From Planctomycetota bacterium (lineage in GTDB: Bacteria > Planctomycetota > UBA1135 > GCA-002686595), in the NCBI GenBank assembly GCA_027083445.1, contig JALWOP010000392.1, positions 1 through 64,000 of the forward strand: a stretch of 64,000 bases of DNA. Reading direction: 5' to 3'. Under the pieces are notes generated by a model that worked only from the letters and a program-made list of their open reading frames with translations, was not told the origin of the DNA and searched no databases. Position numbers and translations under genes: made by a program. Each line of letters starts with the position of its first letter. The stretch's first letter is position 1. Positions 31,529 through 56,644 of the stretch are shown here, one piece after another.

Positions 31529-32287
31529 TCAACTCTCCGCGCTATCGGTTAGAGCCGTTAGGGTCCGGTTCAGGCGGAAGATGGCGCGGCTGTGAATCTG
31601 GCTCGCGCGCGACTCCGTCACGCCGAGGATCTCCCCGATTTCCTTGAGGTAGAGTTCCTCCCCGTAGTAGAGGGTGATCACCGTCTGCTCTTGTTCGGGT
31701 AGGTCTGCAATCGCATCGGCGAGCAGCGCCTTCATCTCCGCGAACTCGGCGCTCTCCACCGGATCCGCGCAGGAGGGATCCGAGAGCATGGCCCGCAGGC
31801 TGTCCGAGGGACCATCCTCCAGGGAGACCTGCGAAGCGCTGGCGGCACTGAGCAGCACCTCGTCAACCTCCTCGGGGGTGACGTCGAGTTCTCGGGCCAA
31901 ATCCTCCGGGCTGGGCGGTATTCCCAGTTCGTGTTCCAAGCGCGCGACAGCCGCATCCAAGGCACGCACCTTCTCGCGACGCCCCCGGGGCAGGAAGTCC
32001 ACACGGCGCAACTCATCCAGAATGGCCCCGCGAATCTTTCGATAGGCGAAGGTCGAGAATTGAAGACCCCGTTCCGGCTCCCAGGCATCGGCAGCGGCGA
32101 GGAGACCGAGCATCCCGATGCCAAAGAGGTCGTCACGCTCCAAGCCTCCGGGGATGTCGAAGCACATGCGTCCGACGATGTGCCGCAGGAGCGGCACATG
32201 CTCGAGCACGATTTTCTCGCGCTCTTGCGCCTGAGCCTCGCCTTGTACCTGCCAGTCAGGCATGGCGTTCTCGGCTGTCTTCCCCAT
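31529..32287 (-). CDS. fliA: Flagellar sigma factor sigma-28
   Basis: 252 residues, usual FliA/WhiG length. Region 2 (LLRHIVGRMCFDIPGGLERDDLFGIGMLGLLAAADAWEPERGLQFSTFAYRKIRGAILDELRRVDFLPR), region 3 (ARLEHELGIPPSPEDLARELDVTPEEV) and region 4 (LPEQEQTVITLYYGEELYLKEIGEILGVTESRASQIHSRAIFRL) are intact. Directs late flagellar transcription, consistent with the sigma-28-like promoters before flgM-like and motA in this window, and would be held by the FlgM-like protein. Embedded in the export-apparatus operon after flhG; a second start at 32263 is possible. Confidence 0.96.
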   Translation of the reverse strand: MGKTAENAMPDWQVQGEAQAQEREKIVLEHVPLLRHIVGRMCFDIPGGLERDDLFGIGMLGLLAAADAWEPERGLQFSTFAYRKIRGAILDELRRVDFLPRGRREKVRALDAAVARLEHELGIPPSPEDLARELDVTPEEVDEVLLSAASASQVSLEDGPSDSLRAMLSDPSCADPVESAEFAEMKALLADAIADLPEQEQTVITLYYGEELYLKEIGEILGVTESRASQIHSRAIFRLNRTLTALTDSAES

Positions 32288-44839: not shown

Positions 44840-44868
44840 GGCCTCTCCGCTGCTTAGGATCGCGGGAA

Positions 44869-46236
44869 ATGCCTGCGCACCTGTTGATCGTCGACGACGA
44901 CGCCGGCGTGCGCGCCGGCCTAGTTGCCGTCGCGCGCGCCGCGGGCCACCGCACGAGCGAGGCCGCCGATGGAGAGGAAGCCCTCGAACTGGCCCGAACC
45001 CTGACCCCTGACGTGGTCATGCTCGACCTGGTGATGCCCGTACGCACCGGACTCGACGTCCTACCCGAGCTCCTGGCGCTCGACTTCCCCCCCGCCGTCA
45101 TCATCCTGACCGGCCATGCGGATGTTCCGACTGCCGTCCGCGCCATGCAACTCGGGGCATCCAACCTGCTCCAGAAGCCGATCGAACCCGATCTCCTGCG
45201 GGACGTCCTCGCCCGCGTGATCGCTTCCCGCGGGGTGCGGGCCGAGCGGGATCGCCTGCGCGATGAACTCGCTCGCCTGCGGGCCGGACCGGTGATCGGA
45301 CGCTCGGCCGGGATTCGCCGTGTCCTGGAGCATGTCAGGCGCGTGGCCTCCACACCGCGCACGACCGCCCTCATTCTGGGGGAATCCGGGGTCGGCAAGG
45401 AACTGGTCGCCCGTGCCATCCATGAAGGCTCCGCACGCTCCGCCGGCCCCTTCGTCGCAGTCAACTGTGCTGCGATCCAAGCCGGACTGCTCGAGCCCGA
45501 GCTCTTCGGCTATGAGCCGGGCGCTTTCACCGGAGGTGATCCAGCGGGTCATGACGGCCTCATCGCCGCAGCGGACGGGGGGACGCTGCTCCTGGACGAG
45601 GTCGGTGAGATGGACCCCGCCCTGCAGGCCAAGCTCCTGCGAGTCCTCCAGGAACGCAGCTACCGACGCGTGGGAGGGACGGTGGACCTCATCATGGATG
45701 TGCGGGTCATCGCCTCGACCAACCGGGACCTGGCAGCCATGGTCGAGGAGGGCACCTTCCGGGAAGACCTCTACTATCGCCTCAACGTCCTCTCGATCCA
45801 GGTCCCGCCCCTACGCGAGCGACCGGAGGATATCCCTGCGATCGCCACCCACTTTCTGGCCCTCTTCGCTGAAGAGCTGGGACGTGATTTCACGGGCTTC
45901 TCCGAGGCGGCCATGTCCCTGCTCACTCGATACTCCTGGCCGGGCAACGTGCGAGAGCTCAAGAACGCTGTCGAACGCGCCGCCATCCTGGCCGAGGAGG
46001 GTTTGGTCCGACCCGAACACATCTCCCTTCCATCCAAGGACGGGTCCGTATCGGCCGCACAGGGATCCTCGGTCCTGCCCCTGCGGGACTGGAAGCTCAA
46101 ACACATGGAAGAGCTGCTCATCCGCAGGGCCCTGTCGGAGTTCGGAGGGAATCGCAGTCAGGTCGCCCGCGAACTGGGAATCAACCGCACGACGCTCTAC
46201 AGCAAGCTCAAGATCTACGGGATCGACAAGACTTGA
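44869..46236 (+). CDS. Sigma-54-dependent response regulator (NtrC family)
   Basis: 455 residues: receiver domain with phosphoacceptor Asp in VVMLDLVMPVRTG, AAA+ ATPase with Walker A GESGVGKELVARAIH, sigma-54 contact loop GAFTGG (GYEPGAFTGGD), DGGTLLLDEVGEMDPALQAKLL and a Fis-type C-terminal HTH (RRALSEFGGNRSQVARELGINRTTLYSKLKIYGI). A probable flagellar activator. No cognate kinase adjoins it. ATG 44869 gives the family start. Divergent from flagellin 2. Confidence 0.93.
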   Translation: MPAHLLIVDDDAGVRAGLVAVARAAGHRTSEAADGEEALELARTLTPDVVMLDLVMPVRTGLDVLPELLALDFPPAVIILTGHADVPTAVRAMQLGASNLLQKPIEPDLLRDVLARVIASRGVRAERDRLRDELARLRAGPVIGRSAGIRRVLEHVRRVASTPRTTALILGESGVGKELVARAIHEGSARSAGPFVAVNCAAIQAGLLEPELFGYEPGAFTGGDPAGHDGLIAAADGGTLLLDEVGEMDPALQAKLLRVLQERSYRRVGGTVDLIMDVRVIASTNRDLAAMVEEGTFREDLYYRLNVLSIQVPPLRERPEDIPAIATHFLALFAEELGRDFTGFSEAAMSLLTRYSWPGNVRELKNAVERAAILAEEGLVRPEHISLPSKDGSVSAAQGSSVLPLRDWKLKHMEELLIRRALSEFGGNRSQVARELGINRTTLYSKLKIYGIDKT

Positions 46237-46249
46237 GCGACGCGTGGAC

Positions 46250-48016
46250 TCAGGAGGCCTGCACCAAGAGCTCGCTGCGGTAGCGGTCGAAAAGCGTCGC
46301 CTTGCTGAGCAGACCGACGAAGCGCGACCCGTCGAGCACCGGTAGGACCCAAACCCCGGTGCGTTCGAACAACTCGACCGCTTGGCGGAGATTGGCGCTG
46401 AGGGCCACCGTCGGAGGATCGCTGTCCATGACCGTCCCCACGAGGGTCACCCGCGCCAAGTCAGGGTCGAAGAGCAACTGGTGGACGCTCCGAATGTCGA
46501 GCAGGCCTCGGAACTCACCCGTATCTCGGTCGATCACCGGCACCTGAATGCGTCCCGAGAGCCGCACCACCTCAACCGCTTCGACGAGGGTCTGCTGCTC
46601 GTCGACCGTTGCCACGTTCTCATCTAGGGCTTCTTGGAGGTTGATCTCGGAGAGGATGCGGCGATCCGTTCCCAAACGCAGCAGGTCCCCCCTCTCGGCG
46701 AGTTCCTTGGTGTAGATGCCGTAGCGATCGAAGCGCCGCGCAACCAAGAGCGAGAGCACTGCCACAATCATCAGGGGCAGGATGACTTCGTAGCCCCCCG
46801 TCACCTCCATCACCAGAAGGATGCCGGTCAAAGGCGCCTGCATCACACCCGCCACGAGACCCGCCATGCCGACGAGGGCATAGCTCCCCTCGGGTCCGAG
46901 GCCCTGAAGCGAAGGCAGGGCCATGCAGACTGCTCGGTAGAACCCAGCTCCTACGAATGCCCCAAGCACCAGACATGGCGCGAAGACACCTCCCGGGGCT
47001 CCGGAGCCCAGGGTCAGGCTGCTGGCCGCCATCTTGGCCGTGACCAGGAGCATGCAGGCGCCGAGTCCCCCGCTCGCCTCCGGCCCGATGACCCGAACGA
47101 CCGTCTCGTATCCCTCTCCGATCGCCTCCGGGGCGACCAGCCCGATCGCACCGACCCCGAGCCCGAACACCAGCGGTGCGGTGAAGCGCGAATGGGGCAG
47201 GCGCTTGGCCAGGGTCGAAGTACCGTCGAGCATGCGCGAGAGAGCCGTAGCGGTCACCCCCGCCAAGAGTCCCAAGGGAATGCAGAGCAAGAGGTCGATG
47301 CCCCCCATCGAGAAGGTCGCATCCAGAAAGGACTTCTCGTTCCCAAGGACCAGTCGCGAGAGTTCGGTCGCCGCAACAGCGCAAACGATCACCGGGACGA
47401 CGGTCAGCGCGGTCCATTCGACGAGCACGACCTCGAGCGCGAAGATCATGCCGGTCATCGGAGCGTTGAAGATGGCGGAGATCCCTCCCGCAACGCCGCA
47501 GGCGAGCAGCACCGAGCGGCGCCGGTCATCCATCCCGAAAAGACTGCCGACCGTGGAACCGAAGGCCGCTCCGGTATAGACGATCGGGCTCTCCAGCCCG
47601 GCGGATCCCCCGGAACTGACGTTGACCAGACTTCCCAGCCAGAGGGAGAAGATGCCCCGACGCTGCATGCGTCCGCCTCCACGGCAGACGGCGAGGATCA
47701 CATTGGGTACCCCGTGGCCCGCGTGCTCACGGAACGCAGCAACGATGAGCACCGCCAGCAGTGCGCCAAGGCCGGTGACGAGCACGGAGGCGATGCCCGT
47801 ACGCCATGGCTCTAGGGCGTGGAAGAGGTGGTGTACCCCGCTGCGCAGCCCGACTGCAGCCAAGCCGCTCAGGATGCCGGTCAGCACCGCGAGCAGGAGA
47901 AGTGTCCCCCAGGTCTCGTCCGGCGGGCCAAGAACGCGAAGCACCCGGCGCATGCTGGGTGCCAGGTCGCGCCAGGATCGTTCGCGGGGTTCGGTGGACT
48001 CGGCGGGGTCACTCAC
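46250..48016 (-). CDS. ClC-type chloride channel/transporter with CBS pair
   Basis: 588 residues. About ten membrane helices with ClC signatures: SSGGSAGLESPIVYTGAAFGS (the GxExP gating region; Glu retained), GVAGGISAIFNAPMTGMIFALEV and LGSGAPGGVFAPCLVLGAFVGA. The C-terminal 140 residues carry two CBS domains (INLQEALDENVATVDE..., TVMDSDPPTVALSANLRQAVELFERTGVWVLPVLDG). Its start overlaps the end of the HTH-EIIA gene (ATGA), so the two are co-transcribed and functionally linked. Confidence 0.92.
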   Translation of the reverse strand: MSDPAESTEPRERSWRDLAPSMRRVLRVLGPPDETWGTLLLLAVLTGILSGLAAVGLRSGVHHLFHALEPWRTGIASVLVTGLGALLAVLIVAAFREHAGHGVPNVILAVCRGGGRMQRRGIFSLWLGSLVNVSSGGSAGLESPIVYTGAAFGSTVGSLFGMDDRRRSVLLACGVAGGISAIFNAPMTGMIFALEVVLVEWTALTVVPVIVCAVAATELSRLVLGNEKSFLDATFSMGGIDLLLCIPLGLLAGVTATALSRMLDGTSTLAKRLPHSRFTAPLVFGLGVGAIGLVAPEAIGEGYETVVRVIGPEASGGLGACMLLVTAKMAASSLTLGSGAPGGVFAPCLVLGAFVGAGFYRAVCMALPSLQGLGPEGSYALVGMAGLVAGVMQAPLTGILLVMEVTGGYEVILPLMIVAVLSLLVARRFDRYGIYTKELAERGDLLRLGTDRRILSEINLQEALDENVATVDEQQTLVEAVEVVRLSGRIQVPVIDRDTGEFRGLLDIRSVHQLLFDPDLARVTLVGTVMDSDPPTVALSANLRQAVELFERTGVWVLPVLDGSRFVGLLSKATLFDRYRSELLVQAS

Positions 48017-48681
48017 GGCTCGCGACGGATGGTTCGCAGGTAGTCGACGAGTTCTTGCTGGGATCGAAATCTCTCCAGCATGACCCTAAACCCCGGATTG
48101 CGCAGCATGAAGGCGATCCGCCCAAGCACCTGCAGGTGGACGGTGGCGTTGGGAGAGAGGATCAAGAAGACCGCGAAGACAGGCTCACCGTCCTGGGCGG
48201 CCCAATCCACCGGCTTCTCCAGGAAGAGCAGACTGATGGTGGCTTCCTGAATGATGTCGGCGGGTGGGCGACGCGGATGGGGCATGGCAACCCCGTGGCC
48301 CAGGGCTGTCGTCGCCATGCGCTCGCGTTCGAGGACGTCTCGCAGCAGCGTCTTGCGCTGCTCCTCGTCCAGGCCCTCGAGCCCTTGCAGGGCGAGCTCG
48401 ATCGCGGAGACCGCGTCATGCCCCTCGGAGCTGACCTGGACGGCTCCGCGCTCGATTGCGTCTGCCAGGAGATCCGCGGCCGGCTTGGGCAGCCTGGTGG
48501 TATGGACCTCTGGGGTGATCCCGTGCTCCCGGGCCCAACGCAGCAGAGCATCCCGCTCGATTCCGCGCCCGCTGAGCAGCGCGGAATTCAGCAGGCCCTG
48601 ACGCAACCATCGCTGCATCGTCGCCTCGGTGACATGCAGGAAGCGGGCGGCCTCGGAGGGGGTCAAGTACGACCGGGACAT
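48013..48681 (-). CDS. HTH - PTS EIIA-Ntr-like fusion protein
   Basis: 222 residues: an N-terminal excisionase/MerR-like HTH (YLTPSEAARFLHVTEATMQRWLRQGLL) fused to a PTS EIIA fructose/Ntr-type domain (residues 65-215) with active His135 in ALGHGVAMPHPRRP. Residues such as LFLEKPVDWAAQDGEPVFAVFLILSP are typical of PtsN-type EIIA. A phosphorylation-dependent regulator of the ClC gene it overlaps is plausible. ATG 48681 opens at the HTH; the longer frame adds no conserved sequence. Confidence 0.87.
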   Translation of the reverse strand: MSRSYLTPSEAARFLHVTEATMQRWLRQGLLNSALLSGRGIERDALLRWAREHGITPEVHTTRLPKPAADLLADAIERGAVQVSSEGHDAVSAIELALQGLEGLDEEQRKTLLRDVLERERMATTALGHGVAMPHPRRPPADIIQEATISLLFLEKPVDWAAQDGEPVFAVFLILSPNATVHLQVLGRIAFMLRNPGFRVMLERFRSQQELVDYLRTIRREP

Positions 48682-49011
48682 GGGCGCGCACGATAGCACG
48701 CACGCAGCCCCGCGGGGCCCGCTCCAGATGGAACCGCGGGCCGCTGACCCGGAACCGGCCGGCCAGCCGAGCAGCCCTTTCTTCCCCCCCGGAAGGAGCC
48801 GTGGGAAATCCCTTCCGATGCGTCGAATCAATGAACACCTGTCGAGAAACGCGACCGCGAAAGAAGCTCCCCCCGGGCCGGCCTGTGCTTCCCGGTCGTG
48901 AAGTTTCTTCCGCTTTCCGGCCTGAAGCACTCAACCCGAGACACACACCCGGCCGAAAGACGGGCTTGGCACCGGCCTTGCTCACCCAGGGCTGTGATGC
49001 CGCCCCAAGCC
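48682..49011. other. Upstream region of the main flagellar operon
   Basis: 330 bases between the divergent HTH-EIIA gene and the plus-strand flagellar operon, holding the sigma-54 promoter at 48967-48982. GC-rich sequence (48700-48960) upstream could contain activator sites; I could not define them by eye. Confidence 0.55.
48967..48982 (+). promoter_or_regulatory. Sigma-54 promoter of the plus-strand flagellar operon
   Basis: TGGCACCGGCCTTGCT matches the consensus TGGCACG-N4-TTGCW at all but one position, with -24 GG and -12 GC correctly spaced. Predicted start of transcription about 48993. Confidence 0.85.
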
Positions 49012-49650
49012 ATGTCTTCCAAGCCGACCACAGCTCACCACGATCCCGAACTGGCCCTGGCCTTCGAGTTGGCCCTGGCACGCCCTCTGCGTGCCATCGA
49101 GGCGGCCCTCGGGCGTCACATCGGCGAGAGCGGGAGTGCGGATCTGGGCGCCTGCTACCAGGCCCTGGCCCAGGTTCGCCGGGAGGCGGAGGCCGCTGTC
49201 GACCTCTTGGAGCGCCATCCCCTGCGGATGGATCAGGCCACCCTGCGAGAACTCGCCGCCAGCGCGATGGCCTTGATTCCCGCCGCCGAACGCGAGCGGG
49301 TTTGGATCGCGATTGAGCCCACCGACCAGACCGTCGTCCTCGACGCTCCCACCTATGCCCGCTCCCTGGCGGCCTTGATCGCCCGAGCCCTGCAGTCCAA
49401 CGGCGTGGAGGTGCTCCTGCACGGGCATCAAGAGAACGGAAGCGTGACCTTCGCCTTGGTGCAGGACCTGACCGCCGACGGCTCGCCCTACGAGGAGCCC
49501 GAGGATCTCCCGCCTACGCCCCAGTACCTGCTGGCCCTGTCCGACTTCGAACGCATGGGAGCGGAGGTCGCCGATCACGCCGCCGGACCCCATCGCTGCA
49601 CGACCGTCAACCTCTCTTCCGTACCCGCAGGGAGCCCATGCGCGTCCTAA
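49012..49650 (+). CDS. Degenerate histidine-kinase-like protein
   Basis: 212 residues. The helical N-terminus (ALARPLRAIEAALGRHIGESG, residues about 17-60) resembles a HisKA dimerisation hairpin without a phosphoacceptor His in the expected place; the rest (LDAPTYARSLAALIARALQSNGVEVLLHGHQENGSVTFALVQDL) follows the HATPase_c fold but lacks clear N, G1 and G2 boxes. Probably a pseudokinase or protein-interaction module. First gene of the operon; overlaps the receiver-ATPase gene by 13 bp. An in-frame ATG at 48997 exists, but 49012 fits the predicted transcription start better. Confidence 0.65.
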   Translation: MSSKPTTAHHDPELALAFELALARPLRAIEAALGRHIGESGSADLGACYQALAQVRREAEAAVDLLERHPLRMDQATLRELAASAMALIPAAERERVWIAIEPTDQTVVLDAPTYARSLAALIARALQSNGVEVLLHGHQENGSVTFALVQDLTADGSPYEEPEDLPPTPQYLLALSDFERMGAEVADHAAGPHRCTTVNLSSVPAGSPCAS

Positions 49651-50597
49651 TCGTAGATAGCGACCGCGCACTCGCGGCGAGCTGGAAGGCCGCGCTCCTG
49701 CGCGTCGGTCATGAGGTCACCTGCGTCACCAGCGCCGAGGAGGCCCTCTCGCTGGGCGAGCACGAGGTGCTCCTGGCTGAAGTCGATCTCCCCGGAATGG
49801 ATGGACTGGAGCTTCTGGAGGCTCTGCATCTGCTGGGACAGCACCCGCGCGCCATCATCGTTTCGGCTTGCGCGAATCTCGAGACCTGCCAACAGGCGCT
49901 GCGCCTCGGCGCGGACGACTTCCTGGCCAAGCCCGTCGAGATGCAGACCATCCTGGATGCCGTCGAGGGCAGCCCTTCGACCTGGGCACCGACTCCCGCG
50001 GTATTCGAGCGCACCTATCCCGCCTGCAGGGGAACCGATGAGCGCGCCGCGCGCGAACTCGCGGCCTATTGCCTGCGCTGTTACGTCGCCCCCGCCACTC
50101 GCGCACGCATCGCGACCACCTGTGCCGAGCTGGTGGGCAACGTCATCCAGCACGCCTACCCGGGCACTCCGGGTGAGGTGCAAATCGAGGCGACGGTCGA
50201 TCGCAGCGACCTGACCCTGCGAGTGAGCGATTCCGGCATCGGCTTCGATCCACTCTGCACGAGCCTCGACCACCTGGTCGACTGCCTCTCGGGAGGCCTG
50301 GCACGAGCTGCGGCTCTTTCCGAGGATGTGCGCATCGACGCCGCTCCCGGGGAGGGGACGCGAGTCGAAGCACGCTTCTCGGTCACGCGCTCCCTCTTCG
50401 ATGACGAGGCCACCGTGGACCTCTCCGACCTCGATTGGATGCCGCCCGAGGTCGCACGCGAAGTCCTCGCAGCCTGTGATGAGGACCCTGACGGGGCCTC
50501 CCGCTTCGTTCTCTCGCCAGCTCTGGCCGTTTCACTCGGCCGCCTCCTGGCGGGACCCGATCCCCGGCACGTGCTGCGCACGGCCCTTTGGAGCTAG
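49638..50597 (+). CDS. Receiver-HATPase protein with Glu at the phosphosite
   Basis: 319 residues. Receiver domain (1-115): acidic pair Asp7/Asp9, Ser76 and Lys98 are conserved, but the phosphoacceptor position four residues before Pro52 is Glu48 (LLAEVDLPGMDG), not Asp. Second domain (125-255): RsbW-type HATPase_c with N box TCAELVGNVIQHAYPG (Asn168), G1 VSDSGIGFDP and G2-like GGLARAA. The C-terminal 60 residues (SLFDDEATVDLSDLDW...) are unknown. A constitutively active-like receiver linked to a serine-kinase/anti-sigma-type ATPase. Overlaps the gene before by 13 bp and ends 2 bp before the next start. Confidence 0.85.
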   Translation: MRVLIVDSDRALAASWKAALLRVGHEVTCVTSAEEALSLGEHEVLLAEVDLPGMDGLELLEALHLLGQHPRAIIVSACANLETCQQALRLGADDFLAKPVEMQTILDAVEGSPSTWAPTPAVFERTYPACRGTDERAARELAAYCLRCYVAPATRARIATTCAELVGNVIQHAYPGTPGEVQIEATVDRSDLTLRVSDSGIGFDPLCTSLDHLVDCLSGGLARAAALSEDVRIDAAPGEGTRVEARFSVTRSLFDDEATVDLSDLDWMPPEVAREVLAACDEDPDGASRFVLSPALAVSLGRLLAGPDPRHVLRTALWS

Positions 50598-50599
50598 CC

Positions 50600-51634
50600 A
50601 TGGCCCTCGACGACTTCGACGAAGCCGACCAGGAGCTCGAGCTCGACCTGGAACAACTGGATCTCACCGCTCGCGGGAAGATCGATCCCAGCGATCCCCT
50701 GGACGAAGACCTATTCGACTTCCCGGACATGGGGATCTTCGAGTCCCTGGAGGAAGCGGCCGAGGCCAGCAGTTCGGCGAGCGTGACCGAAGCGTCGTCT
50801 CCAGTCCACGCGGACGAACCTGAGGTCGAAACGGACACTTGGGTCGCCGGCACGCCGGGAAGCCCGGGCTACGACCCGGAGCTGGACGAGGACATCTTTG
50901 ACTTCGGCGGCATGCCCGGCATGGCCGTATCCAGTGCCGGCGAGAGTCCGTCCGAAACGGCTGCGCCACAGGGCGAGGACACCTTCATCGTCCCCGAGGA
51001 GCTCACTACCGCGCCCAGCTCGACCCCGACCGAAGCGAAGTCCGAGGCGCAGGAGATTCCCCGGCCCACCCCCGGCGCAGACACCACTGCGGCGCCTCCC
51101 GCTGCTCACGATCTCGATGTGGAACTCGCCGCCCTTGCCGGGAGCATGCCGGTGCCGGTGACCGTCCCCATCGCAGCCGAGGGTGGCAGGGACAAGGTCA
51201 TCCTCGCTCTGGCCGCGGCGTTCCTGCTCGTGAACACGGCCCTGATCTTCCTCGCCTGGCAGGCCAATAGCTCCTTCCACGGGACGCTGACGGAGGTTAC
51301 GCGCAGTCTAGCCGAGGGTATCGCCAAGGCATCTCCTCCCGTACAGGCCGCCCCAAGCGTCGAATTCGTGCCGGTGCCGACCACCGGCCATGAACCTCAC
51401 ACTCCCGATCTCGATCCGAGCGACCTCGACAGCCTGCCGGATCAAGCTCTGACCGCCGCGCGCCGCATGATGAGCGAGGGGGCTTACATCGATGCGCGCA
51501 AGCAACTGAACCACCTGCTCGCGAACGCGGATCTCTATCCGCTCGACCGCGAACTCATCGCCGAAGCGGAGTTCTTGATCGCCGAGACCTATGAACTCCA
51601 GGGCTCGGCCCTGCTGGAGGAGGCCGGCCGGTGA
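50600..51634 (+). CDS. Acidic single-pass membrane protein with TPR tail
   Basis: 344 residues. A long acidic cytoplasmic N-terminus contains a repeated LDED[LI]FDF motif (near residues 35 and 96), suggestive of a short linear binding motif. One membrane helix (VILALAAAFLLVNTALIFLAW, about 198-218), then a periplasmic stretch ending in TPR-like helices (LTAARRMMSEGAYIDARKQLNHLLANADLYPLDRELIAEAEFLIAETYELQG). ATG 50600 is preferred to an in-frame TTG at 50588. Its stop overlaps the start of the STN-TPR gene. Unknown flagellar envelope protein. Confidence 0.75.
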   Translation: MALDDFDEADQELELDLEQLDLTARGKIDPSDPLDEDLFDFPDMGIFESLEEAAEASSSASVTEASSPVHADEPEVETDTWVAGTPGSPGYDPELDEDIFDFGGMPGMAVSSAGESPSETAAPQGEDTFIVPEELTTAPSSTPTEAKSEAQEIPRPTPGADTTAAPPAAHDLDVELAALAGSMPVPVTVPIAAEGGRDKVILALAAAFLLVNTALIFLAWQANSSFHGTLTEVTRSLAEGIAKASPPVQAAPSVEFVPVPTTGHEPHTPDLDPSDLDSLPDQALTAARRMMSEGAYIDARKQLNHLLANADLYPLDRELIAEAEFLIAETYELQGSALLEEAGR

Positions 51635-53166
51635 TGCGCGCGCTACTCCTGCTCTTGCCCTTCCTCTCCCTCGGCGCTCACGCCCAGGATGAGGTCCAGT
51701 TGCGCGACCAGCGTTTCATGTGGGTGGAGCTCAACTGGGGCGAAGATGGCCAGCCGCTGCTCTCCATCCAGGCCAAGGACGTCTCGGCCGAGGCCCTGAC
51801 GCGCTTGATCGCACGCCGCCTGAATATTTCGCGCGTGGAGGGATTCGATCAACTCGACGACGATCCCCATGTAACCGTCAACGTAACGCTGCGGCCGGCG
51901 GAGCAGGTACTGCGCTGGACACTTGGCACCGTCGGGCTCACGGCCGTCGTCGGCAACGATGCCCTCGTGGTAGCTCCTGATGTGGGTGCGAATCCCGACG
52001 GCAAGGCCATGCTGCGCAAGGCTACGACCCGCTATCTCGATGCACTGCGCCGCTTCCCCGACTACCCCGATGCCGACCGCGCCCAAATGGCGCGCGCGAC
52101 CATCGCGGAACGCCTCGGCCAGGAGGAATGGAGCACGGCCGTCCTGAACTACGACCAGCTCATCGAGGAATACCCCCACTCCGACCTTGTTCCGGAAGCA
52201 CTGCAGCGCTGCGGTCACCTCTACGGAGAGATGGGCGTCTGGGATCAAGCCATCCTGCGCTACGAGGAGCTCAGCCGTCGCGAGGATCCGCACCCCTACC
52301 ACGCTATCGCGCGCCTCGAACTGGCCGATGCCCTCTGCCACCGAGGCGAGACGGAGTCGGAGCCCGCCGTCGCGGTGGGGATGGGAAACAAGGCTCTCTA
52401 CGTCCTCGAAGCCCTCGATGCCAGCTATCCGACAAAGGAACCCCAGCAGCGCTACGAGCGACTTCTCGTCCAAGCTCGCGCGCATGCGCTGGCCGGGAAC
52501 GGCATACGAGCCCTACAAACTCTCGACGCCGCCGCACGCTACTCACGTGCGGGAGTCAAGGATGCGCGCATCCTCGAACTGCGAGCGCGTGCCTTGGAAC
52601 ACGCGGGTGAACTGGCTGCCGCCTCGAGTGCATGGCTGGCCTGGGCCGAGTCCATGGAGGGTCAGGCGCGTATCGACGGTTACCAGCGAGCAGCACGTGC
52701 GGCCCTCCGCGCGGGCGAGGACCTGGCCGTCTTGATGATCCATGCCCGTGCCGAGGAGCTCGGCTTCGGCGATGAGCTCGCCTCCGCCGAAGCGCAGGCA
52801 CGCGCCACCCTGGGACTACCGGTAACCACGGCATCGGCCCTAGACCCCGCTGCCGACCTGGCCCGAGGGGAGAATCACGTCACCGCCCGTCGTTGGAAAG
52901 CCGCCCGCGAGGTCCTGCGTGGCGTCTACCAACAGCGCTCGCAACTCTCGCCCGAGGAGGAGGTGCGGCTGGCTACGGCCTATGCCAAGAGCCTCCACAA
53001 GCTCGGGCATGAAGAGGCCGCCATCGATGTCCTGCGTGCCATCGTCGGCGACCTCGACAAGGAACCGCTCCGCCGCCAGCTCTACCTGTTGGCTGCCGAC
53101 CTCTACGAAAACCGCACCCAGCCGCGCTTCGATCTCGCTGTCGAGGCCTTGAAAGGACGACTCTAG
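51634..53166 (+). CDS. STN domain plus TPR periplasmic protein
   Basis: 510 residues, signal peptide MRALLLLLPFLSLGAHAQ. Residues 35-105 resemble the STN domain of secretins and TonB receptors (VSAEALTRLIARRLNIS..., PHVTVNVTLRPAEQVLRWTLGTVGLTAVVGNDALVVAP). The remainder (115-510) is TPR/SEL1-like: YPDADRAQMARATIAERLG, WSTAVLNYDQLIEEYPHSDLVPEALQRCGHLYGEMGVWDQAILRYEELSRRED. Not a known flagellar protein. ATG 51634 overlaps the preceding stop (TGATG); a GTG at 51631 is equivalent. Confidence 0.78.
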   Translation: MRALLLLLPFLSLGAHAQDEVQLRDQRFMWVELNWGEDGQPLLSIQAKDVSAEALTRLIARRLNISRVEGFDQLDDDPHVTVNVTLRPAEQVLRWTLGTVGLTAVVGNDALVVAPDVGANPDGKAMLRKATTRYLDALRRFPDYPDADRAQMARATIAERLGQEEWSTAVLNYDQLIEEYPHSDLVPEALQRCGHLYGEMGVWDQAILRYEELSRREDPHPYHAIARLELADALCHRGETESEPAVAVGMGNKALYVLEALDASYPTKEPQQRYERLLVQARAHALAGNGIRALQTLDAAARYSRAGVKDARILELRARALEHAGELAAASSAWLAWAESMEGQARIDGYQRAARAALRAGEDLAVLMIHARAEELGFGDELASAEAQARATLGLPVTTASALDPAADLARGENHVTARRWKAAREVLRGVYQQRSQLSPEEEVRLATAYAKSLHKLGHEEAAIDVLRAIVGDLDKEPLRRQLYLLAADLYENRTQPRFDLAVEALKGRL

Positions 53167-54045
53167 ATGCTGCGCCATCACTCCTCTCTTGCACTGGGCT
53201 TGGCCGCTCTTTTCGTCCTGCCCGCCACTCTCCCCGGAGAACAGGATGGACTCGACCTCAAGGCACGTCTCGAGGCGACGGTGACAGCCATCGGTCGTCT
53301 TGGTGGCCTCGAAGAACGCCTTCGGGCAGGGGATGACTCCGTCATTGATGAACTGCTGCTCCTTACCGAAGCACCGGACCGCGGCGCGGAAGAACGCGAT
53401 CAGCAGCTCAGCATGTTGCGCACCCAGCTCGCCGCTCTACAGCAGAGATGGGATGAACTCTCCTCGAGCGGCTCTCCCCTACGAAGCGTCCCTTCCCAAG
53501 CATCCGTGGTTTCAGAGGTGACGCCGGGTACCGTGCCAATGGACCCCGACTCCGCAGGTTCCGAGCCGCTCGGTCCGGGTCACACGGGCCTCGACGCCAG
53601 CGCGCGAGAACAGCTCATCCAGGCGCTGCAGTCCCGCAAACCCAGCCATTCGAAAGATGGAGACTCCTCTTCGAGTGCTGATGTTGCGGATGGAGTGCGC
53701 TCCTTCGAGGAGGACAAGAACTACAGCGCCGATCCCCTCCGGGAGGGGCGCCTCTTGGCTCGCAGTCAACGCTGGGAGGAGGCCTTGACCTTCCTGGAGC
53801 CCCTGCAAGACGATCCCGAGGCACGCTACTGGACGGCTCGTTGCTACGAGTCCCTGGGCCGCACGGGAGAGGCCATAGAACTTCTCGAGGGCCTTGTCGC
53901 ACTCGGTCAGGCGGATCCGGACAGCCAGGAGCAGCCCTCCGCTGCGCTTCGCACTCTCGCGCGCCGTGCGGGTTATGACCTGGAGTTTCTGAATCTACGG
54001 CGCGAGCTCAGCGATCGCCGCAAGCGCCAGGAGGGTGGCAAGTGA
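53167..54045 (+). CDS. Exported TPR-like protein
   Basis: 292 residues, signal peptide (SSLALGLAALFVLPATLPG). A central coiled coil (ERDQQLSMLRTQLAALQQRWDEL), a serine-rich linker, and C-terminal TPR-like helices (REGRLLARSQRWEEALTFLEPLQDDPEARYWTARCYESLGRTGEAIELLEGL). Third of three envelope proteins in a row; directly abuts the STN-TPR gene and its stop overlaps the kinase GTG as GTGA. Confidence 0.75.
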   Translation: MLRHHSSLALGLAALFVLPATLPGEQDGLDLKARLEATVTAIGRLGGLEERLRAGDDSVIDELLLLTEAPDRGAEERDQQLSMLRTQLAALQQRWDELSSSGSPLRSVPSQASVVSEVTPGTVPMDPDSAGSEPLGPGHTGLDASAREQLIQALQSRKPSHSKDGDSSSSADVADGVRSFEEDKNYSADPLREGRLLARSQRWEEALTFLEPLQDDPEARYWTARCYESLGRTGEAIELLEGLVALGQADPDSQEQPSAALRTLARRAGYDLEFLNLRRELSDRRKRQEGGK

Positions 54046-55253
54046 CGGCCTTCGACCAGGTCAGTGCGGCCCTCGCCGCCGGCGGAACCGCGCAGGTAGA
54101 AGCGGCCATCGCCGAGTTTGGGCGTGTCTTGGAGGATCTGCACCAAGCCCATGCCGAACTCGCCGACCGTGCAGCACGCATGGAGCAGGAACTCGAGGTC
54201 CGGGTTGCGGAACTCGAAGCCATCCTCAACGGCCTTCCCGCCGGCGTCATCGTCAGAGACGCCGAGGGGGTCGTCCAGAGAACGAACCCTGCCGCCCGGG
54301 AACTCCTGGGGGCCTCTCCAGGAGAGCTGGAGGGAAAAGGGAGCATCCCCCTCTTGGACGGGCTCGCTCGGGATGGGTCCCCCTGCACGCTCGATCTCGA
54401 TCGCAGCCCCGCAACGGTCGTGGCTCTCAAACGCTCCGAGGTCAGGCTTCCGGACGGAGCGGTGATCGGAACCGTCGAGATCTTGGACGACCGCACGCAG
54501 CTCGAGCTCATGAGCCAACGCATGCTGCAGCAGGCCAAGATGGCGGCCCTGGGAACGATGGCGGGGGGCATCGCCCACGAGATCCGCAACCCGCTCAACG
54601 CCGTGCGCGGTTTCGCTTCGCTGCTCACCGAACGGCTCGCGGATGGCTCCACCGAGGAGCGCTGGGCCCACTTGATCGAAGAGGGAGTCGACGAGTGCGA
54701 TGCCATAGTCGGCTCCGTAATGGCCTTTGCGGCTCCCGAACGCCTCTGCCTGGAGCCGCTCGACGCACGCACGGTCTGCGAATCCGCCCTGGGCGCTGTC
54801 CGCCGAGATCTCGCCCGCAACTGTCGCGATGAAGCCTTCGAGCTGCGCTGCTCGGCACCCGATTCGCTCGCCTTTTGCGGAGACCGCATGCAGGTACGTC
54901 AAGCCCTACGCAACCTGATCGCCAATGCGGTCGATGCCCAACCCCACGGTGGAATCGTCTGCATTGAAGCCACGCAACACGGCGACTGTGTCGAGTTTCG
55001 CGTCCACGATGCCGGTCCCGGCATCGCCCCAAAGAACAGGGCGCGCTTGACCGAACCCTTCTTCACAACCCGCGCCGAAGGCACGGGCCTGGGCCTGGCC
55101 TTGGTCCACACCGTAGCGCGGCTGCATGGCGGCTCCTTCCAGGTCGGACCGGATCCCGGTCCCCTCGGCGGCGCCGACATGCTTCTCACCCTCCCCCTCG
55201 GAGACGACTCCACTCCCCCTACCCAGAGCCCCACCCCCTGCGACGCGCGATGA
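54042..55253 (+). CDS. PAS-type sensor histidine kinase (FlrB-like)
   Basis: 403 residues, cytoplasmic: N-terminal coiled coil, PAS domain (about 60-150: LEAILNGLPAGVIVRDAEGVVQRTNPAARELLG), HisKA with phosphoacceptor His179 in GGIAHEIRNPLNAVRGF, and HATPase (LRNLIANAVDA N box, VHDAGPGI G1, EGTGLGLALVHTVARLHGG G2). Immediately followed by an NtrC-type regulator, ATGA overlap, the arrangement of flagellar FlrB-FlrC/FleS-FleR pairs. GTG start at 54042, overlapping the TPR-gene stop. Confidence 0.92.
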   Translation: MTAFDQVSAALAAGGTAQVEAAIAEFGRVLEDLHQAHAELADRAARMEQELEVRVAELEAILNGLPAGVIVRDAEGVVQRTNPAARELLGASPGELEGKGSIPLLDGLARDGSPCTLDLDRSPATVVALKRSEVRLPDGAVIGTVEILDDRTQLELMSQRMLQQAKMAALGTMAGGIAHEIRNPLNAVRGFASLLTERLADGSTEERWAHLIEEGVDECDAIVGSVMAFAAPERLCLEPLDARTVCESALGAVRRDLARNCRDEAFELRCSAPDSLAFCGDRMQVRQALRNLIANAVDAQPHGGIVCIEATQHGDCVEFRVHDAGPGIAPKNRARLTEPFFTTRAEGTGLGLALVHTVARLHGGSFQVGPDPGPLGGADMLLTLPLGDDSTPPTQSPTPCDAR

Positions 55254-56644
55254 CTGTTCAACGCATCCTCGTGGTCGATGACGACCCCCTCTCACGTCAA
55301 TTCCTCACCGAGGCCGTCCAAGCCCTCGGGTTCACGGTCCTCGCGGCCAAGAGCGGTGAAGAAGCACTGGAACGCGTGGGTGATGCCCACCCCGACCTGG
55401 TGCTGACCGACCTACGCATGCCCGGTGTGGACGGACTTTCCCTGACCAAGGAACTGGCCCATCGCTGCGAAGACCTTCCGGTGGTCGTCATCACTGCACA
55501 CGGCAGTGTTCAGACGGCGGTCGAGGCCATGCAGTCAGGGGCGGCCGATTTCCTGCTCAAGCCGACCTCTCCGGACGCGCTGCGAGTGGTCATCGAACGG
55601 GTCGCGCGTGAACGTCGACTGCAAGCCGAGAATGCCCTCCTGCGAGCCGAAGCCTGTGGAGCCGCGGCTCCTCCGATCGTCGCCGAGAGCGACGCCATGA
55701 TCGAGGTCCTGCGCTCGGCCGCACGCATCTCACAATCGAAGGGCACAGTCCTCATCACAGGGGAGAGCGGCACGGGTAAGGAGCGCGTGGCCCAGTACCT
55801 CCACCAGGCCAGTCCGCGCTCCGACGGGCCTTTCATTCGCGTCAACTGCGCCGCCCTCTCCGAACAACTGCTCGAATCCGAACTCTTCGGACATGAGCGG
55901 GGCGCCTTTACCGGTGCCCACAAGCAGCGGCCGGGGCGCTTTGAACTCGCCGATGGCGGAACCCTGCTCCTCGACGAGCTGGGCGAGATCTCCCCCAAGA
56001 TGCAGGCCAAGCTTCTGCGGGTCCTGCAAGAGGACGAGTTCGAACGCGTGGGCGGCTCCCAGACCTTGAAGGTGGATGTCCGCGTCATCGCAGCCACGAA
56101 CCGCAACCTCGCCGATGAAGTCGCCGCCGGTCGCTTCCGTGAGGACCTCTACTATCGCTTGCACGTCCTTCCCCTGCACGTCCCGCCTCTGCGTGAGCGT
56201 CCCGAGGATATCCTTCCGCTGGCGCGACACTTCTGCAAGGTCTATGCGGAACGCAACGGTCGCCCGGTACCTAGCCTCAGCCCAGAGGTTGCCGAACGCC
56301 TGGTCGACCACACCTGGCCGGGTAACGTCCGGGAACTGGAGAACGTCATTCAACGCGCGGTGGTACTGGGAACCTCGAGGGAGCTCGACCCCGAGAACCT
56401 GGTCTTCGGTCCGACCAAGGACTTGCTCTCCTCCCGCGCCGCTGAAGACCTCACCCTGGAGGACTACGCAGTCGCTCACGCGATCGCCAACCGCACGCTG
56501 GCGGACATCGAACGCGTCGCCTTCCTGACGACACTCGAATGCAGCAACGGCAACAAGACCGAAGCTGCGCGCCGCCTTGGAGTCACGGCCCGCACGATCT
56601 CCAACAAGCTCAAGATCTGGCGCGCCGCTGGTCTAGTGGGGTGA
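55250..56644 (+). CDS. NtrC-type flagellar regulator (FlrC-like)
   Basis: 464 residues: receiver with Asp in LVLTDLRMPGVDG, Walker A GESGTGKERVAQYLH, sigma-54 contact GAFTGAHKQ, DGGTLLLDELGEISPKMQAKLL, NLVFG linker and Fis-type HTH (ECSNGNKTEAARRLGVTARTISNKLKIW). Partner of the kinase before it; the operon carrying it starts at a sigma-54 promoter, so autoregulation is likely. Four bases before flgB. Confidence 0.94.
   Translation: MTVQRILVVDDDPLSRQFLTEAVQALGFTVLAAKSGEEALERVGDAHPDLVLTDLRMPGVDGLSLTKELAHRCEDLPVVVITAHGSVQTAVEAMQSGAADFLLKPTSPDALRVVIERVARERRLQAENALLRAEACGAAAPPIVAESDAMIEVLRSAARISQSKGTVLITGESGTGKERVAQYLHQASPRSDGPFIRVNCAALSEQLLESELFGHERGAFTGAHKQRPGRFELADGGTLLLDELGEISPKMQAKLLRVLQEDEFERVGGSQTLKVDVRVIAATNRNLADEVAAGRFREDLYYRLHVLPLHVPPLRERPEDILPLARHFCKVYAERNGRPVPSLSPEVAERLVDHTWPGNVRELENVIQRAVVLGTSRELDPENLVFGPTKDLLSSRAAEDLTLEDYAVAHAIANRTLADIERVAFLTTLECSNGNKTEAARRLGVTARTISNKLKIWRAAGLVG

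Follow-up and report, generated by a model that had tools for sequence, protein, structure and literature searches.

What does a response-regulator receiver fused to an anti-sigma-type ATPase do in the flagellar operon of a planctomycete, and does it still depend on phosphorylation to do it? The gene in question lies in a 64,000-nucleotide stretch of Planctomycetota DNA (the whole stretch analyzed, hereafter the window), where a sequence-only reading had proposed it as a new regulator of flagellar gene expression that a Glu at the phosphosite of its receiver might lock on. The best explanation, to which we assign a probability of about one half, is an ATPase switch resembling the Leptospira protein LvrC, with a receiver that now works without phosphorylation and a kinase-like neighbor, UP, that signals to it by binding.

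A receiver-ATPase protein in a flagellar operon

The features on which the argument depends are as follows.

44863 to 46236, plus strand: NtrC2, sigma-54 activator with REC-AAA-Fis layout (Pfam)
48967 to 48982, plus strand: sigma-54 (-24/-12) promoter TGGCACCGGCCTTGCT, heading the operon (mismatch-free site)
49012 to 49650, plus strand: UP, histidine-kinase-like protein (homology to the operon kinase, AlphaFold fold)
49638 to 50597, plus strand: REC-HATPase, LvrC-like protein of 319 aa (ORF, Pfam, AlphaFold model)
49644 to 49967, plus strand: receiver domain of REC-HATPase, residues 3-110, with D7, S8, E48, S76 and K98 (Pfam, FleR receiver alignment, family alignment)
49995 to 50384, plus strand: SpoIIAB/RsbW-type ATPase domain of REC-HATPase, about residues 120-249 (Pfam, family alignment, profile match)
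50385 to 50594, plus strand: C-terminal extension of REC-HATPase, residues 250-319 (family alignment; no Pfam match)
50600 to 51634, plus strand: G3, conserved operon protein with no Pfam match (Pfam, gene order)
51631 to 53166, plus strand: G4, TPR-like protein conserved in the operon (Pfam, gene order)
53167 to 54045, plus strand: G5, TPR protein conserved in the operon (Pfam, gene order)
54042 to 55253, plus strand: FlrB-like PAS histidine kinase, H-box intact (AHEIRNPL) (Pfam, alignment)
55250 to 56644, plus strand: FlrC-like sigma-54 response regulator, receiver and GAFTGA intact (Pfam, alignment)

The REC-HATPase gene is real. Pfam recognizes Response_reg at residues 3-110 of its product (E 1.4e-18) and HATPase_c_2 at residues 137-246 (E 8.5e-12), and the AlphaFold model has a mean pLDDT of 88.6. 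As the sequence-only reading had it, an RsbW-type ATPase is fused to the receiver; Pfam, profile search and model show the two joined directly with nothing between. The best solved match of the ATPase domain is SpoIIAB, aligned over its whole length (SpoIIAB 3-140, E 1.5e-13), while RsbW matches at 2e-9. The domain has the Bergerat ATP-site residue set (E, N, DxGxG, G) of the SpoIIAB/RsbW anti-sigma kinases, with E164/N168 as the N-box and D198/G200/G202 as the G1 motif, and E164, N168, D198, G200, G202, G220 and G240 are each found in 59-60 of 60 relatives (98-100%). REC-HATPase thus shares fold and motifs with SpoIIAB and RsbW but differs from them in carrying a receiver and in having no sigma or STAS partner gene alongside. 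Between the window protein and its closest relative, L009, the most conserved part is the C-terminal extension (79% as against 47% for the receiver), which is missing from the outgroup family.

Over the whole protein, the best match in both sequence profile (8.2e-20) and fold (1.5e-15) is LvrC of Leptospira interrogans (LIC11110, PDB 9qih), which likewise consists of an N-terminal receiver and an RsbW/SpoIIAB-type Bergerat ATPase. The suggestion that the arrangement was unusual and new must be qualified accordingly, since a 2026 paper already presents the Rec-RsbW architecture in LvrC, a putative anti-sigma factor under the control of its receiver, which is canonical (D53) and phosphorylated by LvrB (PMC13269768). 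REC-HATPase departs from LvrC in its degenerate receiver, in the His-less kinase-like UP beside it and in its added, conserved C-terminal extension; judged from the Glu phosphosite and the missing His, its receiver would not be phosphorylated by a cognate kinase as that of LvrC is. HsbR of Pseudomonas aeruginosa, which we take to combine a receiver with a kinase domain of the RsbW type, resembles REC-HATPase in this combination and in its link to flagella. It differs in its PP2C phosphatase domain, which Pfam did not find in REC-HATPase, so that the REC-PP2C-HATPase layout of HsbR does not apply, and in that the planctomycete operon holds no HsbA-like STAS gene. The HsbR-HsbA-FlgM pathway touches flagellar control (PMC6482189, PMC5085249).

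The flagellar context was confirmed by genes for FliE, an FlgC-type rod protein, FliF, FliH, FliJ, flagellins, FliD, FlhA, FlhB, FliR and FliQ. The order flagellins, NtrC2, UP, REC-HATPase, G3, G4, G5, histidine kinase, response regulator and basal-body genes recurs across the family, and the proposed place of REC-HATPase in a flagellar operon with sigma-54 regulators is upheld, as that of a conserved member. Just before UP, the promoter at 48967-48982 is the window's only sigma-54 match without a mismatch; many flagellated relatives have similar sites upstream of UP, 37% of loci reaching the threshold compared with 2% of shuffled regions, and flagellin-less relatives stay below it. Every relative examined has the phospho-accepting His of the FlrB-like kinase, and in nearly all flagellated species with readable regions the receiver and GAFTGA/GSFTGA of the FlrC-like regulator are retained.

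Other genes of the cluster vary more or are less easily named. NtrC2, intact in the window, is degenerate in many relatives (e.g., L061, L064, L066 and L079), in several of which the receiver is absent or changed and GAFTGA is gone. G3 to G5 (50600-54045) are kept with the family's flagellar operon and carry no specific family name; G3 has a putative membrane segment, and G4 and G5 are TPR-like and exported by appearance. On the minus strand at 46250-48930, inside the flagellar cluster, are a chloride-channel-like gene and a PTS EIIA-2 gene with an HTH_17 domain. Like several relatives, the genome of the window has two genes for RpoN-type proteins (Sigma54_DBD matches on G000 C23 and C354).

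Retention of the gene after flagellar loss

REC-HATPase occurs as a single copy in 61 of the 81 genomes of the window's GTDB family, and a shorter outgroup version is found in two genomes from another family of the same order. All named relatives, which were found with a profile from the alignment of one genus, belong to Planctomycetota; they include the cultured Planctomycetes bacterium Poly30, which we take to be Saltatorellus ferox, the genus Saltatorellus being placed in Planctomycetota. In Poly30 (CP036434.1), REC-HATPase lies at about 650955-651935. The single protein gave no match in the genome contigs, and pooling all 60 proteins produced a profile of too great a diversity for scanning. 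The evidence throughout is sequence-based, and the genomes are mostly incomplete assemblies.

The gene is not confined to flagellated species: within the family, 10 of the 12 genomes without flagellin have it, as do 51 of the 69 flagellated ones; some of the 18 flagellated genomes without it are incomplete. The ten flagellin-less genomes that have it lack FlhA and keep RpoN. The flagellin-less genomes have lost G3 to G5, the kinase and every flagellar gene but keep REC-HATPase and the response regulator. At L070, L078, L083 and L065, REC-HATPase is followed by the FlrC-like regulator, with no kinase and no flagellar genes, and the sequences flanking the pair bracket the whole flagellar cluster on the window's contig (C392), on the left at window 21.2-26.7 kb (the RF2-SfsA side) and on the right at about 69.6 kb (the FAD oxidoreductase side), which indicates that the cluster was deleted around these two genes. 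The excised cluster spans 40 kb (window about 27000-69600) and was lost from between the same flanks in several lineages. A single clade of flagellin-less proteins is rejected (p 2e-6), with a minimum of four changes on a gene tree that calls for some caution; flagella were lost in about four lineages, with REC-HATPase kept beside the FlrC-like regulator. UP was kept in three of the four flagellin-less groups and was not detected in the flagellin-less genus g11. In g8 and g11, the FlrC-like regulator lacks GAFTGA and the Walker B residues and keeps its DNA-binding helix.

Retained in ten flagellin-less genomes, REC-HATPase evidently does not serve flagella only. The description of it as a flagellar regulator is supported by its conserved place in the flagellar operon but is too narrow for the flagellin-less genomes that keep the module. 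This bears directly on the possibility of a flagellar checkpoint, in which the ATPase would act as an anti-sigma factor for FliA (sigma-28) and couple basal-body building to the late genes. Homology to SpoIIAB, the LvrC precedent, the operon context and a fliA gene in the same cluster (31529-32287, on the other strand, about 17 kb from REC-HATPase) all point that way, but we consider it unlikely, given that most of the flagellin-less genomes with REC-HATPase have no flagellar-type FliA, that 18 flagellated genomes do without the gene, and that some relatives give a signal for FlgM, a conceivable alternative anti-sigma factor, if only a weak one (22 of 81 genomes). FliA as the sole target is likewise weakened by retention without flagella. 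Another FliA/WhiG-class sigma factor, besides the flagellar FliA, is present in all tested genomes, among them every flagellin-less genome with REC-HATPase.

RsbW and SpoIIAB are kinases, and the ATPase could instead phosphorylate a STAS protein encoded elsewhere, with the receiver tuning the kinase in a partner switch. The conservation of all ATP-site residues and the N-box Glu would suit such an activity, and two STAS genes exist elsewhere in the genome, but the absence of any STAS (PF01740) match from the operon and from the window's contig leaves this a little less credible still than the FliA checkpoint.

Receiver chemistry and the kinase-like neighbor

When the protein was aligned with the receiver of FleR (7w9h) and with others, Glu48 (codon 49779-49781, GAA) fell on the phospho-Asp, as had been claimed, Ser76 on the Thr/Ser position and Lys98 on the Lys position. 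The accompanying claim that all other receiver residues are kept did not survive the alignment: the acidic pair is D7/S8 (S8 codon 49659-49661, AGC), so that one Mg-binding acid is missing, and D9 occupies the third, non-catalytic position. The window receiver (D7 S8 E48 S76 K98) therefore fits in fold and Pfam family but lacks the residue set of a phosphorylatable CheY/NtrC-type receiver. Glu48 of the window species rests on one assembly and is one base change from an Asp codon; an assembly error behind S8, which is two base changes from an Asp codon, is unlikely.

The same-genus relative L009, which is 56% identical to the window protein and forms a fully supported pair with it on a tree of 57 placed proteins, has the complete receiver E7 D8 D48 T76 K98. 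Only 13 of these 57 relatives have a complete active site. Across 60 proteins, D48 is found in 28, D8 in 13 and K98 in 24, and position 48 is occupied by D, E, A, G, N, P, R, S, T or C; on the tree, changes between Asp and not-Asp at this position number at least 13. Parsimony by itself gives these changes no direction, but the outgroup proteins L063 and L067 have canonical receivers, which makes repeated loss of phospho-chemistry the simpler history. The residues thus suggest that the phosphorylation site was lost many times among the relatives while the ATP-binding site was kept.

UP has lost catalytic residues as well. Its likely start is the ATG at 49012, in a frame open from 48898, and its end overlaps the start of REC-HATPase. 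It is homologous to the histidine kinase of its own operon (E to 1e-17), and its AlphaFold model (mean pLDDT 87.6) finds histidine kinase cores, including ZraS, RetS and DivL, as top fold matches. In the window, however, the phospho-His is replaced by Leu and the N-box Asn is lost, and of 38 aligned relatives only 4 still have the phospho-His, the two of the outgroup included. A linked loss of the UP His and the receiver Asp was rejected, as the two states do not correspond one-to-one across relatives. Rates of UP and receiver showed no correlation; UP was linked to the ATPase domain, weakly and with saturated distances.

Were Glu48 a mimic of phospho-Asp, the receiver would be locked on and the regulator permanently active. 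Glu does occupy the phosphosite, a D56E exchange makes the receiver of Leptospira LvrB constitutively active, and Glu is the commonest replacement of Asp48 (7 of about 17 inferred on the tree). LG rates predict such a share (43%), and it is only nominally high against BLOSUM/PAM-type frequencies (15-22%). With no clear excess over substitution-model expectation, the idea of selection for Glu at site 48 was dropped. The lock is further contradicted by the loss of the second active-site acid to S8 in the window protein, by A, G, N, P, R, S, T and C at position 48 in other lineages, and by L009, precisely the close homolog with a normal Asp that the sequence-only reading had named as evidence against its own idea. 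We consequently regard locking as improbable and not as a general explanation, although such an effect in the window species alone is possible.

Least credible is the view that this two-component pair is in decay and no longer does anything, for although catalytic residues are lost in UP and receiver, some flagellated genomes lack the gene and one match contains an in-frame TGA, the gene is single copy in most of the family with its ATP site intact, and dN/dS between pairs of close relatives is 0.03-0.37 in all domains, flagellin-less species included. Degenerate receivers give dN/dS of 0.06-0.27 (L020/L021 0.07, L041/L045 0.10, L044/L050 0.13), indicating purifying selection and hence a receiver maintained as a protein and not as a phospho-switch. 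The in-frame TGA, in a single-contig flagellated genome (G066:C1:4756995-4757603), may mark a recent pseudogene.

A candidate switch without phosphorylation

In the LvrC-like switch that we favor, the receiver would control the SpoIIAB/RsbW-type ATP-binding domain, which would hold or release a partner protein in an ATP-dependent manner, sequestering or perhaps phosphorylating it. The receiver, having repeatedly lost its phospho-chemistry in this planctomycete family, would persist as a folded domain for docking or allostery. UP would bind REC-HATPase and probably signals by binding instead of phosphotransfer, as DivL and RetS do, and receiver and UP would together form phosphorylation-independent control surfaces. 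Like UP, DivL of Caulobacter and RetS of Pseudomonas have the histidine-kinase-core fold and are repurposed kinases, and DivL reads a receiver by binding it (PMC4211667). UP differs from both in being short, in having no sensory domains, in having lost ATP-site residues as well, and in being coupled to a receiver-ATPase.

The FlrC-like regulator would belong to the same pathway. As putative targets, the FlrC-like protein is favored by its co-retention and a sigma factor by homology. More tentatively, and at somewhat less than even odds, a two-component pair (UP and the receiver-ATPase) became a phosphorylation-free switch that acts in some more basic process by way of the FlrC-like DNA-binding protein and was for that reason spared at each of the roughly four deletions of the flagellar cluster.

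With this family, the LvrC architecture, itself described only recently, reaches into Planctomycetota, and a flagellar-operon regulator stands out that evidently has a role beyond flagella. Its members also form a natural series that runs from receivers with full chemistry to dead ones, and from species with flagella to species without, while the ATPase output is preserved. Such a series allows tests of how a two-component pair can turn into a switch that does not depend on phosphorylation. At the intact end of this series, the 13 relatives with a complete receiver, L009 included, usually have a UP without the His, which suggests that phosphorylation by another kinase, such as the FlrB-like one, may still be relevant there.
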